Under the pieces are notes generated by a model. That model was not told where the DNA came from, made no database searches, and saw only the letters and a program-made list of their open reading frames with translations. The translations under genes were made by a program, and so were the position numbers. Positions 9,513-16,432 of a stretch of 52,627 nucleotides of DNA are shown piece by piece. This stretch comes from Defluviitaleaceae bacterium (GTDB lineage Bacteria > Bacillota > Clostridia > Lachnospirales > WRAX01): contig WRAC01000015.1 of the NCBI GenBank assembly GCA_009780415.1, positions 1 to 52,627 on the forward strand. Direction: 5' to 3'. The number at the start of each line of letters is the position of its first letter. Positions within the stretch are counted from its first letter, which is position 1.

Positions 9513-11774
9513 ATGACATCAATGGAATATAAGCAAGGCTCCGTTATATGCGGCGAAGGCAAGCCTATGGATCAGCTTTTATTCATAACCGGCGGAAAGG
9601 CGGAAGCTTCATTCAAAGGAAAACCGTTTATTTATGAGCAAGGCGACGTAATAGGTATCTGTGAGCTTAGCGACGGGGTTTACAGCAGTACTTACACCGC
9701 GGTTTCGGATGTAGTGGTATTTTCGTATCCATATAGAAATTTAAGCGCGCTGGAGGGGCTGCTGCGGGAAAAACCGGATATCGCCAGCCTGCTTATCAAT
9801 TCTATGTGCCGCCAGCTCCTGAGCCTTTTACAATATAAGATTGCGCTGAAAAACGAGGCTGAAATGGCATTTGAGTCGGTTAAGGGCATATACGCGCAAT
9901 ACGGCAATATGTGTACGCAATACGCGTTTACGGCTAAGAAGCACGAAGGGGTCGCGGGTGCCGATCCGTTTCCCGAAATCGATCTGGTAGACGAATGGAT
10001 ATATCCCTACTATATGGAAACAAAGGAATCTGACCCCGCCGTACGCAAGGCTTTTTTCAACAATAAGCCCGGGATAACGCTGGGTTTTATCCGTAAAGGC
10101 GCGGAGGATGCCCGCCTTGTGATAAATATATGCAAGGATTATATCAACTATATAAATAAAATCTTGCAGATTTTCCTGCGCAGCGGCGGGCATGACCTGT
10201 TCGCGCTTATTTCCGAGCTGCATTGCGTCTCGATAAATATAAAAGGCGCGGATGCCGCCGTAGGGGCACTAATGGCTTGGCTGACGAAGCTGCTTTCCGG
10301 CATGACGGGTTTAAATCACACCTATTATCAACAGCGCATGGCGGCATATAAAGGAAACCTTGCGGTTAAGCGGGCGTCGCAAACGGAAGAGGGCATGACC
10401 GAGGGTCCCGGCAGCACGGCGGATTCAATGAATCTTATTCTGGAATACTCCGGCCGCCCCAAAGACATATGCAGCAAATTCATCAGAAACGTACAGGAAT
10501 ATACGAAACTCAGCGACAGGGGTTCCGCCGAGGATGCCGTGTACCGCCTGCGCAGGGAATTAACGGCGGCTTTCTATGACATATATCAGGGCGTACTGAT
10601 TAAAAGCCTTAAAGACCCCGCCCCGCCCACAATCATTAAAATGTTCCTCAACTTCGGGTATGTTGACGCGGCGCTTGCCGGGCAGGAAAACGCGGACTAT
10701 TTATATTCGGTTGCGGATTCGTTGAAAGGCGACCCCGAGATGGGCGTTTACACGGCGTATGAATGGCTTGCCGCTATTTACGGCGGGCGGAAGGAGCCGT
10801 GCCGCAATGAGCTGGACGAGGATTACGCCGCTTATTTACGCGGTCAGAAGGCGACGCGTAAAATTGACGACAAGGAAGAGGCGCGGCTTTTAAATGATTT
10901 GGAAAGCAAGCTGCGTTTCGAGATAGAAAATGTGTTCCCGGTTACGAATAAGATAACATGCGGTATTATTTCAACATACTGCCCGCTGCTGTCCAGCCAT
11001 AATATACAGCGCAAGCTTGAGTTTTCATTGGTAACGCCTAAGCTTATTATGGATACGCTTGACGAAATACGCGGCGTTGATTTCTCCGCTTATTTCCGCG
11101 AGGTAATGTATTCAGACCCTGTGCTCGGCACGGCAAAAGAGGTTATACATGTGGAGGTACTGCCCGATTTCATCCTTATGCCCACCGTCGGCATACGCGG
11201 GATTATGTGGCAGGAGATTGAAGGCATGAAGCGCGCCACACCGTCGCGCATGTTTATGCCGCTGTTCCTGCAAAGCGACCTGAAAGCGCTGCTGATACGC
11301 CTGACAAGCGAGTTCCGCTGGGAAATGTGCAAGCGCGTCCAAGGCGTGCGCTGGACCGATATAACGGACCCCTCGCTTACCAGCGAGTACAGCGACTATT
11401 TGCAATTTTACAGGAACAACCGCGACCTTTCAGCGGAGGTAAAGGAATCTATCAAAACCGAGCTTACGCGCGCCCGGAACAACTATAAAACGGCGTTTTC
11501 ATTGAATTACACGGATTGGATGCAGTATGAGGCGAACGGCTCCTCGCGCCTTAACAGAACGGCCCGCCGGATAATTCTGGCATATTGCCCTTTCCCGTCC
11601 CAAACGCGGGAAAAGCTCAAACAAAACCCGCAATTCTCGGAGCTGCTTAACCGTTACAACGTAAAACAGAATCAACGCGTACAGCAACTGTCCCGGCTTA
11701 TTAATAAGGTAGGCCAGTCCGGCAAAAAGGTTCCGCAGGAATTGCATGATGAGTTGGAATACGCCAATAAATAA
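9513..11774 (+). CDS. Large protein with N-terminal cyclic-nucleotide-binding-like domain
   Basis: 753 residues. Residues about 1-110 follow the cNMP-binding jelly-roll pattern of Crp/Fnr proteins (YKQGSVICGEGKPMDQLLFITGGKAEASF...EQGDVIGICELSDGVYSSTYTAVSDVVVFSYP). No Crp-type DNA-binding helix-turn-helix is visible. The remaining ~640 residues are mostly predicted helical and soluble, with no domain I recognise. Similar large proteins occur in Clostridia, and their role is unknown. Well-placed ribosome site (GAGAGAGG). It stands alone, 27 bases after the acyltransferase gene. A ligand-sensing scaffold is one possibility; I do not assign a function. Confidence 0.7.
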   Translation: MTSMEYKQGSVICGEGKPMDQLLFITGGKAEASFKGKPFIYEQGDVIGICELSDGVYSSTYTAVSDVVVFSYPYRNLSALEGLLREKPDIASLLINSMCRQLLSLLQYKIALKNEAEMAFESVKGIYAQYGNMCTQYAFTAKKHEGVAGADPFPEIDLVDEWIYPYYMETKESDPAVRKAFFNNKPGITLGFIRKGAEDARLVINICKDYINYINKILQIFLRSGGHDLFALISELHCVSINIKGADAAVGALMAWLTKLLSGMTGLNHTYYQQRMAAYKGNLAVKRASQTEEGMTEGPGSTADSMNLILEYSGRPKDICSKFIRNVQEYTKLSDRGSAEDAVYRLRRELTAAFYDIYQGVLIKSLKDPAPPTIIKMFLNFGYVDAALAGQENADYLYSVADSLKGDPEMGVYTAYEWLAAIYGGRKEPCRNELDEDYAAYLRGQKATRKIDDKEEARLLNDLESKLRFEIENVFPVTNKITCGIISTYCPLLSSHNIQRKLEFSLVTPKLIMDTLDEIRGVDFSAYFREVMYSDPVLGTAKEVIHVEVLPDFILMPTVGIRGIMWQEIEGMKRATPSRMFMPLFLQSDLKALLIRLTSEFRWEMCKRVQGVRWTDITDPSLTSEYSDYLQFYRNNRDLSAEVKESIKTELTRARNNYKTAFSLNYTDWMQYEANGSSRLNRTARRIILAYCPFPSQTREKLKQNPQFSELLNRYNVKQNQRVQQLSRLINKVGQSGKKVPQELHDELEYANK

Positions 11775-11801
11775 AAACCTTGGGGCGCTGCCCGCATCGT
11801 G
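11773..11801. repeat. REP-like repeat, left inverted copy
   Basis: Contains GGGGCGCTGCCCGCATC. The reverse complement of 12613-12642 matches it over about 28 bases with a few differences (shared AAACCT, then GGGCGCTGCCCG and ATC). The two copies face each other around the transposase remnant and the GNAT gene. Confidence 0.65.
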
Positions 11802-11827
11802 TAACAACGGGTTGTTGAGTTGTGAAA

Positions 11828-11977
11828 ATGTACGAAAAGCCAATCAGAAAGAATATCCGTCTAAGAGGCTATGATTATTCAAGCGCAGGGTACTATTTTA
11901 TTACGATGTGCGTAAAAGATAAGAGGATTGTTATTATCAAAATGAGTAAATTTATTACCTTTGGAGGAATCGTATGA
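11828..11977 (+). pseudogene. Remnant of a REP-associated tyrosine (Y1/IS200-like) transposase
   Basis: Reads MYEKPIRKNIRLRGYDYSSA then GYYFITMCVKDKR, the typical N-terminus of RAYT/Y1 transposases. After about residue 34 (11929) the similarity stops, and the frame runs 15 more codons into the ribosome site of the next gene and ends at 11975-11977. The catalytic HUH motif and the active Tyr are absent, so this is a truncated relic of an element whose REP-like ends may be the repeats at 11773 and 12613. Confidence 0.75.
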
Positions 11978-12411
11978 ATATTTCGCTGGAGCCTGTAAAA
12001 TTTACAGAAAAGGAAATATTAAAGAATTTAGGTGAATTATATATTTATGAGCTTTCGCAGTATTCCTCTGTAGATGTTAATGATTTGGGTTTATATGATG
12101 ATTTAGATGATTTAGACCTTTATTGGGCAGAAGAAAATCGGCACCCATTTTTTATTAAAGTTAATAATAAGCTGGCTGGATTCGTACTTGTTTTTGATGG
12201 CCGCCAAATTGAAGAAATCGAATCAAATTATTCTATAGATGATTTCTTTATAATGTATCAATATAAGAAAAAGGGAATTGGGAAACATTGCGCAAAATAT
12301 ATTTTCGATAGGTTCAAAGGAAAATGGCAAATATGGTTTCATCCAAGAAATGAGATTGCAAAAAATTTCTGGATAAATACAGTGGATGAATATACTAAAG
12401 GAAAATTTTAA
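11974..12411 (+). CDS. GNAT-type N-acetyltransferase, truncated by a premature stop
   Basis: 145 residues of a GNAT-fold acetyltransferase: acetyl-CoA-binding P-loop equivalent YKKKGIGKHCAKYIF, then FHPRNEIAKNFWINTVDEYT, the usual second half of the fold. The gene is much more AT-rich than its neighbours and has a good site (GGAGGAATCGT). After the TAA at 12409-12411 the same frame continues to 12477 with IKKNDTPYYDGALGNTLVFD, which is the expected last strand of this family. The gene therefore seems to have lost its last ~21 residues to a nonsense change. It lies inside the REP-flanked island and was probably acquired. Substrate unknown. Confidence 0.75.
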   Translation: MNISLEPVKFTEKEILKNLGELYIYELSQYSSVDVNDLGLYDDLDDLDLYWAEENRHPFFIKVNNKLAGFVLVFDGRQIEEIESNYSIDDFFIMYQYKKKGIGKHCAKYIFDRFKGKWQIWFHPRNEIAKNFWINTVDEYTKGKF

Positions 12412-12477
12412 ATTAAGAAAAACGATACTCCTTATTATGACGGAGCTTTGGGGAATACATTAGTATTTGATTCTTAA
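12412..12477 (+). pseudogene. C-terminal piece of the GNAT gene beyond the in-frame stop
   Basis: In frame with 11974-12411 after TAA. It encodes 21 residues including YYDGALGNTLVF, the family's C-terminal strand, and ends at a second TAA (12475-12477). A single base change at 12409-12411 would restore one intact reading frame of about 167 residues. Confidence 0.65.
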
Positions 12478-12533
12478 AGACAATTTGCAACAATTTCCTC
12501 GTTAGGTAATTCGCGCATATTCAAAACGAAGGG

Positions 12534-12558
12534 GGGCAAGGGGCGAAACCCCTTGCTC
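12534..12558. repeat. Strong hairpin in the island
   Basis: GCAAGGGG (12536-12543) and CCCCTTGC (12549-12556) with a CGAAA loop, extended by two outer pairs. A second stem CCCGT..ATCA / TGAT.ACGGG lies at 12597-12622 beside the right REP-like copy. Neither is followed by a clear T-run, so these look like repeat-element hairpins more than terminators. Confidence 0.5.
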
Positions 12559-12612
12559 GGGCACTTCGATTGAAATACTTTCAACAGGACTATTTTCCCG
12601 TCATCAAAATTT

Positions 12613-12642
12613 ATGATACGGGCAGCGCCCTCCAGGTTTTAT
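12613..12642. repeat. REP-like repeat, right inverted copy
   Basis: Contains CGGGCAGCGCCCTCCAGG, the near reverse complement of the copy at 11773-11801. It ends 16 bases from the pheS stop codon. Between 12478 and 12657 nothing else is recognised apart from the hairpins listed. Confidence 0.65.
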
Positions 12643-12657
12643 CCTTTACAAAAGCCT

Positions 12658-13686
12658 TTAAGCAAATTGCCGTAAAAACCGTACGTCGTTCTCGAATAAA
12701 ATCCGTATGTCGGGTATCCTGAAACGCGCCAGAGCAACGCGCTCAAGGCCCATGCCAAACGCAAACCCCGAATACACGTCCGGGTCAATATCACGCATTT
12801 TCAATACGTTCGGATGCACCATGCCGCAGCCCAGAAGCTCCACCCAGCCTTCGCCCTTACATACGCGGCAGCCCTTACCCAGGCACATGTAGCAGCGCAC
12901 GTCCATCTCCCCGCTTGGCTCCGTAAACGGGAAATAATGCGGGCGGAAGCGTACCGCCGTGTCCGCTCCGAACAGCTCGCGGGCAAAAGTGGTCAGCGCG
13001 CCCTTTAAATGGCCAAGCGTAATCCCCTTATCCACAACAAGCCCTTCCATTTGGTGGAACACGGGCGTATGCGTCGCGTCAATTTCATCGGAGCGGAAAA
13101 CCTTGCCCGGACATATAACGCGGATGGGCGGCCTGTTCCGCATCATATATCTGACCTGCATGGGAGAGGTTTGCGTACGTAACAGAAAACCGCCGTCGCC
13201 CTCCATATAAAACGTATCCTGTTCATCGCGTGAGGAATGATGTTCCGGCGTGTTCAGGGCAATGAAATTATTATAATCCGTCTCAATCTCCGGGCCTTCG
13301 GCGATCTCGTAACCCATGCCCGTGAATATGCGGCACAGATCCTCGATCATTATGGTCATGGGATGCCGTCCCCCGGGCTTTTGCGCCCTTCCCGGCATTG
13401 TAACGTCAATAACCTCATTGGCAAGGCGTTCCTCAAGCTCCGCCATCCGCAGAACAGCCTGACGCGCTTCAAGCCTTTTCTCAATCTCGGCGCGGGCATC
13501 GTTCGCCGCCTGCCCCATCAGCGGGCGCTCATCGGGCGGCAGCGCGCCCATTCCTTTAAGAATCTGCGTCATGCTGCCCTTCTTGCCCAGGACCTCAACG
13601 CGCAGCTCCTCAAGCTCCCTGACCGTCCCCGCCTTATCGGCGGCCGCTACGGCCGACGCCGTTATCCCGCGTATTTTTTCAATCAT
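12658..13686 (-). CDS. pheS: Phenylalanine--tRNA ligase alpha subunit
   Basis: 342 residues; charges tRNA-Phe as an (alpha-beta)2 enzyme with PheT. It has an N-terminal coiled-coil arm (about residues 1-85) and class II motifs TPEHHSSRDEQDTFY, RTQTSPMQVRYM, VFRSDEIDATHTPVFHQMEG and motif 3 GFAFGMGLERVALARF. Start at 13686 follows GGAGGTAACT inside the last codons of ydcF; the ATG at 13698 lacks a site. pheT, which normally follows directly, is not downstream here. Instead the REP-flanked island begins 16 bases past the stop. No T-box leader precedes it because it lies at the end of the dprA-topA-ydcF operon. Confidence 0.97.
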   Translation of the reverse strand: MIEKIRGITASAVAAADKAGTVRELEELRVEVLGKKGSMTQILKGMGALPPDERPLMGQAANDARAEIEKRLEARQAVLRMAELEERLANEVIDVTMPGRAQKPGGRHPMTIMIEDLCRIFTGMGYEIAEGPEIETDYNNFIALNTPEHHSSRDEQDTFYMEGDGGFLLRTQTSPMQVRYMMRNRPPIRVICPGKVFRSDEIDATHTPVFHQMEGLVVDKGITLGHLKGALTTFARELFGADTAVRFRPHYFPFTEPSGEMDVRCYMCLGKGCRVCKGEGWVELLGCGMVHPNVLKMRDIDPDVYSGFAFGMGLERVALARFRIPDIRILFENDVRFLRQFA

Positions 13687-13688
13687 AG

Positions 13689-14288
13689 TTACCTCCATGA
13701 TTCCAGTAAGTAATAATACATCAACGCCGCATACTCCCGCGCGTAAAACCCCGGCAGCAGGCGCAGGGCGGAGCGGCTTGCCGCGGGCTGCGGATCGTTG
13801 AAGCCAATAAGCCTTGCTATGTTCAGCGAACGGAAGATATGGAAGTCGCTGGTTGCGACGACCACATTATATTCGCCGTCAAAATGCCCGTCCAGTAATA
13901 TTTTGGAAAAACTAAGATTTTGCATGGTATCTCTGGATTGTTTTTCCATTATTACCGCGCTCTCGGGAACGCCCTGCCTGACGAGGTAATTCCGCATAGC
14001 CTGAGCCTCGGGGATCAATTGATCCGGCCCTTGACCGCCGGACGCAACTATAACAGCGCTGGGATTCGCCCCGTAATATTCCAAAGCGCGGTCAAGCCTA
14101 AGCCGCAGTGTGGTTCCCGCCTCGTACCCGTCAAGCCCGCAGCCCAGCACTATAATAGCGTCCCTTCCGGGTTCAGGCTCACCGTACTTCGCAATCATAT
14201 TGGCGGCGAAGAGCATTGCGAATGTGCAAAATACAAACAAAGCCGAAATAAATATTAAACGCTTTAAAATATTAATCCTGGGATTCAT
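13689..14288 (-). CDS. YdcF/SanA-like DUF218 membrane-anchored protein
   Basis: 199 residues with an N-terminal membrane segment (about 8-28, LIFISALFVFCTFAMLFAAN) followed by a DUF218 domain: AIIVLGCGLDGYEAG, RLDRALEYY, VASGGQGPDQLIPEA, AMRNYLVRQGVP, NLSFSK and VATSDFHIFRS with the conserved acidic and His residues. YdcF/SanA proteins are linked to envelope integrity; the biochemical activity is unclear. ATG at 14288 preferred to TTG at 14297. The gene overlaps the end of topA by 17 bases and abuts pheS. Confidence 0.82.
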   Translation of the reverse strand: MNPRINILKRLIFISALFVFCTFAMLFAANMIAKYGEPEPGRDAIIVLGCGLDGYEAGTTLRLRLDRALEYYGANPSAVIVASGGQGPDQLIPEAQAMRNYLVRQGVPESAVIMEKQSRDTMQNLSFSKILLDGHFDGEYNVVVATSDFHIFRSLNIARLIGFNDPQPAASRSALRLLPGFYAREYAALMYYYLLESWR

Positions 14289-16377: not shown

Positions 16378-16432
16378 TATTATACCCCATTCTATTTTTT
16401 AAGCGCTCCGTGAAGCGCCGGACAGTTCGCCC

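Follow-up and report, generated by a model that had tools for sequence, protein, structure and literature searches.

According to Di Nocera et al. (2013, PMC3733652), the genes of REP-associated tyrosine transposases (RAYTs) have GTAG repeats on their flanks or else, as in the TIRtron, unrelated terminal inverted repeats, and Bertels and Rainey (2011, PMC3116915) describe a REPIN as two inverted REPs. Features reminiscent of both were observed in a window of 52,627 nucleotides from a Defluviitaleaceae bacterium (contig C15 of a genome of 2.53 Mb that is assembled into 85 contigs), where two inverted arms enclose a RAYT scrap and a GNAT acetyltransferase gene. This island corresponds to the gap between the stop codons of two converging genes (Table 1).

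The comparison with the described systems is uneven. The N-terminal 33 residues of the scrap are homologous to full-length RAYT/TnpA-REP (NF047646) members of the order, whereas the scrap represents only about a fifth of such a protein and lacks the HUH motif, the tyrosine and an adjacent GTAG REP. As in the REPs and REPINs of PMC3116915, inverted, apparently palindromic units are present, and intact copies elsewhere in the genome consist of two inverted arms with a short inner stem. However, the arms of the window (28 nt, 79% complementary, the top-listed inverted pair of the region) carry no GTAG tag, lie 816 nt apart and have no identified cognate RAYT, so that the REPIN layout given there, two inverted REPs with a short spacer, is fitted by the copies on contigs C34 and C22 and not by these arms. 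The TIRtron of PMC3733652 shares with this locus the long inverted repeats around RAYT sequence, although the relatives of the window's RAYT do not have the arm repeats. Likewise, the GNAT gene stands above the Pfam cut-off for PF00583, but a stop codon interrupts it.

The pieces are real, but we put at about three in four the probability that they are unrelated leftovers in a decayed gap between convergent genes, rather than one mobile element with cargo. The gap would hold three unrelated things: a pair of hairpins from one REP-like family, each placed just after the stop codon of the gene it belongs to; a 33-codon RAYT scrap co-directional with the left neighbour, of a kind whose relatives often lie behind host genes; and an AT-rich GNAT gene, now apparently broken by a nonsense codon. 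As it stands, the island would have little significance, serving as a worked example of how two independent 3′-end hairpins behind convergent genes can look like the inverted termini of a transposon. Should the arms prove to be RAYT ends, the island would instead exemplify the transport of a passenger by REP-type elements.

Table 1. Features of the island and its two flanking genes, in window coordinates.
Feature	Positions	Strand	Basis
Left neighbour, 753-aa protein with cyclic-nucleotide-binding domain (crp-like)	9513..11774	+	ORF; PF00027 above cut-off
Left arm, hairpin-family end of ATAAAACC type	11771..11798	+	Inverted-pair search; motif search
RAYT N-terminal scrap, about 33 codons, without HUH motif or catalytic tyrosine	11828..11926	+	Alignment of relatives; HMM
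AT-rich spacer (25.5% GC); GGAGGA-like ribosome site upstream of the GNAT start	11927..11973	+	Composition; ribosome site by eye
GNAT acetyltransferase gene, broken by in-frame stop 12409-12411	11974..12477	+	PF00583; alignment (ORF 11974-12411)
Inner hairpin, like the second hairpin seen in family copies from other genomes	12536..12556	-	Fold z -2.5; likeness by eye
Right arm, hairpin-family end of ATAAAACC type	12615..12642	-	Inverted-pair search
pheS, convergent right neighbour, without adjacent pheT	12658..13698	-	PF01409 + PF02912; comparison with 29 other pheS loci

Flanking genes and setting of the gap

The stop codon of the crp-like left neighbour adjoins the left arm, and homologues of this gene were found in 25 of 116 genomes, its own included. 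Its cyclic-nucleotide-binding domain is N-terminal, and the long C-terminal part gave no convincing Pfam or NCBIfam match. On the other side, the sequence-only reading had remarked that pheT would be expected after pheS, and its absence here is real: at most of the 30 inspected pheS loci, the ORF that follows downstream is PheT-like, as read from the ORFs without a family scan. The two pheS genes nearest to that of the window (67% each), found in genomes G006 and G004, also have no adjacent pheT, and both the arms and the island are absent there, indicating that the separation of pheS from pheT was not caused by the island. Opposite-strand genes follow pheS in these two genomes, in which its 3′ side is a variable site. 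The same convergent pair of crp-like gene and pheS was found in no other genome; among the crp-like loci examined, pheS was near only in G013, where both genes are on the same strand and not convergent. No empty site was therefore seen, which counts against the reading of a decayed gap.

The inverted arms and their hairpin family

Inverted REP-like copies had been proposed at 11773-11801 and 12613-12642, and the inverted-pair search confirmed them with the limits given in Table 1. The lone arms fold no better than shuffled sequences (z about -0.15); the inner hairpin and the minus strand of 12526-12650 (z -3.55) do fold better. No Rfam match was obtained within 11600-12800 at the gathering threshold, the arm sequences carry neither of the GTAG and CGTC tags that PMC3733652 places beside the palindrome, and the arm core, searched as one exact string only, had no match in the papers searched. 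It was also considered whether a single hairpin element had been split by an insertion; this was rejected on the observation that intact copies have two different ends and the window has the same end twice, a weak comparison of few bases made by eye.

Allowing up to 3 mismatches, a 20-base motif taken from the left arm matched four times in the 2.53 Mb genome versus 0 in the reversed control, these matches being the left arm itself, one copy on contig C4 and two on C34. A shorter arm motif added a copy on C22, although at up to 3 mismatches it gave 16 matches versus 5 in the control, and only the closest were trusted. This shorter motif missed the right arm itself, where a base is inserted. 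The copies on C34 and C22 are complete hairpins of ~85 nt, in which two inverted arms enclose an inner stem, and the C4 copy is a short version; the repeats thus form a family with intact members elsewhere in the genome. Their absence elsewhere, which the sequence-only reading had named as refuting it, is therefore not what was found. Among 112 genomes, the arm motif with at most 1 mismatch was present in 14 (control matches, 0), reaching 195 copies in G033 and 40 in G024. PF01797 had no match in either of these two genomes. With 195 copies in the first of them, the ACCTTGGGGC hairpin family would merit a study of its own, directed at what spreads it.

The intact copies of the window's own genome are polar with respect to genes, the ATAAAACC end adjoining the upstream gene's stop and the AGACC end preceding the start of the next, as read by eye. 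The C34 copy follows the end of an ABC-permease-like gene and precedes the start of a lipoprotein-like one, and the C4 copy follows the end of an Ffh-like gene and precedes an rpsP-like start, gene names being assigned by eye without a family scan. This polarity amounts to five ends read by eye, which was counted against the reading of a decayed gap. Both window arms belong to the ATAAAACC type, and each comes just after its own gene's stop codon. In G033 and G024, where 20 + 3 loci of the former (of ~195 copies) and 20 of the latter (of ~40) were sampled and copies less than 250 nt from the locus end were dropped beforehand, a same-strand gene end was found at -80 to +15 nt of the motif in 16 of 49 copies, compared with 91 of 1200 random positions, and the mirrored layout in 5 of 49. 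Polar hairpins behind two convergent genes would generate an inverted pair facing inward without any transposition of the whole. We infer that the hairpins likely act as 3′-end RNA hairpins, protecting or ending the mRNA.

The RAYT scrap and the repeats of its clade

The proposal of an N-terminal remnant of a RAYT found clear support. An HMM built from 22 full-length relatives matched the island with E=4e-16, the match covering model positions 2-38 of 168, and positions 39-168 had no significant match in any of the six frames of the island. The best-matching relatives within the order show 72-77% identity over 26-31 residues, and full-length ones have about 155-230 aa. The proteins of three out of four relatives matched NF047646, all below the curated cut-off, and the fourth, a 38-aa stretch, matched nothing; a 51-aa fragment matched neither NCBIfam nor Pfam because it is too short. 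A 34-residue query from the RAYT N-terminus (RAYT-N), with E up to 0.01, matched 28 of 392 genomes from the order, counting the window's own, and no plasmid. Judged by its sequence, the scrap is a true RAYT N-terminus, and its short length and missing catalytic parts suggest that it is inert.

Regarding a full-length RAYT in the same genome, the RAYT-N search matched only the scrap, and PF01797 found nothing even at E up to 10. This second result alone is no proof of absence and, as a weak test, counts against the decayed gap, since PF01797 misses relatives of this clade: in G015, G013, G011, G016 and G053, RAYT-N matches lie in open frames of 160-234 aa, and these genomes have no PF01797 match. 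The RAYT-N search is the better test, and one that would miss a RAYT with a divergent N-terminus. Twenty weaker PF01797 loci proved to lie outside the clade of the scrap. As a raw count among the 29 loci of RAYT relatives, 16 RAYT genes start -29 to +14 nt from the stop of a gene on the same strand with 100 codons or more, and the two often overlap; by eye, argC is the host gene in five cases and ispG in one.

The sequence-only reading took the repeats for the REPs of this RAYT, and the evidence went against it. The 29 relatives' loci have GTAGGGGC-type (GTAG) REPs within 400 nt in 22 cases and any arm-like match (up to 3 mismatches) in two. Among 25 chosen genomes, at least five GTAGGGGCG..CGCCC REPs were found in 10 of 13 with the RAYT clade versus 2 of 12 without it. 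The window's own genome has 17 such REPs (reversed control, 0) beside only the 33-codon scrap, so that they were apparently left behind after loss of the enzyme; the only GTAGGGGCG of the window is at 16428, and no clade-type GTAG REP flanks the scrap. Conversely, the RAYT clade is found in 2 of the 14 genomes with the arm motif versus 18 of 98 without, and the arm motif in 2 of 20 genomes with a RAYT-N match versus 12 of the other 92, counts which assume that all 112 genomes are among the 392 of the RAYT-N search, whose listing omits some genomes without matches. When PF01797 is used instead, the arm motif appears in 2 of 64 genomes with it and 12 of 48 without. All these figures are descriptive, given that PF01797 is insensitive for the clade and that the genomes are interrelated. 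The clade goes with GTAG-type REPs and the arm family is not associated with it, and it is mainly at this joint between arms and RAYT that the reading of the island as a single element fails.

Even so, the arms could be the terminal inverted repeats of this RAYT, as in a TIRtron, its core having been lost later and the GNAT gene having landed in the relic by chance. The arms do bracket the scrap, the left one lying 30 nt before its start codon, and RAYTs flanked by terminal inverted repeats exist, as PMC3733652 documents. The proximity of the scrap to both arms, all within 870 bases, and an arm copy in G033 placed 377 nt before a decayed RAYT of the scrap's clade also count against the decayed gap. 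We nevertheless hold the TIRtron origin to be unlikely: arms on both sides were found at 0 of the 29 relatives' loci, an exact inverted flank of at least 12 nt was found at one (13 nt, of another sequence), although several of these loci stop at contig ends, which limits the flank test, and the arm family thrives in genomes without a detected RAYT of the clade. One doubt that remains concerns a RAYT with terminal repeats of the arm kind, and the other the missing empty site. A broader version, in which the ACCTTGGGGC..GCCCC hairpins would be terminal repeats of a RAYT-like enzyme that moves non-autonomous passenger units, with the island as a dead example carrying an acetyltransferase, appears extremely improbable.

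The acetyltransferase gene and its origin

An AT-rich acetyltransferase had been recognized correctly as to family (PF00583 at 31.2 bits versus a cut-off of 20.7) and composition (29.6% GC versus 52.5% for the window); it is not, however, an intact gene, as its ORF ends at a premature stop. Nearly all whole relatives extend at least 10 residues past this stop in the alignment, and the 21 codons beyond 12411, in frame to 12477 and followed by the next stop, match the C-terminus of the family. This continuation indicates that the gene is broken, or else that the assembly has an error at the stop codon. Relatives were matched in 22 of 116 genomes, own included, with up to 51% identity within the order. 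A fragment in a Treponema metagenome-assembled genome is 74% identical, and the tree groups the window's GNAT with this copy (support 0.995). Only distant relatives were found on plasmids, and no match in phages. The gene was probably acquired from another bacterium.

A transfer in which the repeat pair was mobilised together with this gene, as cargo replacing the transposase core, is what had originally been proposed. Such an event would account for inverted family repeats bracketing both the scrap and a GNAT gene of foreign composition. Against it, the island is single-copy, with no second copy found in its own genome, the gene itself is interrupted by a nonsense codon, the RAYT fragment lies beside no other GNAT locus examined, and the arms and the RAYT clade are not associated. 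The HMM found no RAYT sequence left on the 3′ side of the GNAT gene. Cargo transport is accordingly very improbable, and the single-element reading draws no support from the GNAT gene. In the decayed gap that we favour, this gene would be unrelated to the arms and the scrap; the parts themselves, the premature stop and the distributions of the families are shown, and the order of events we infer.

It would be more improbable still that the GNAT gene is an old neighbour of pheST and that the repeats arrived later. A family GNAT behind pheST was seen only in G005, a genome of the same family, where it starts about 90 nt directly behind a PheT-like ORF. There it runs with pheST, whereas the window's GNAT runs against pheS, and it falls in another subclade (L039 with L041), apart from the window's gene and its Treponema partner; moreover, G006 and G004 have no GNAT behind pheS, as read by eye from their ORFs. 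On this evidence the G005 arrangement is a coincidence, and it does not amount to the conserved GNAT next to pheS that the sequence-only reading had named as refuting it. The G005 gene is itself followed by a GTAGGGGCG REP.
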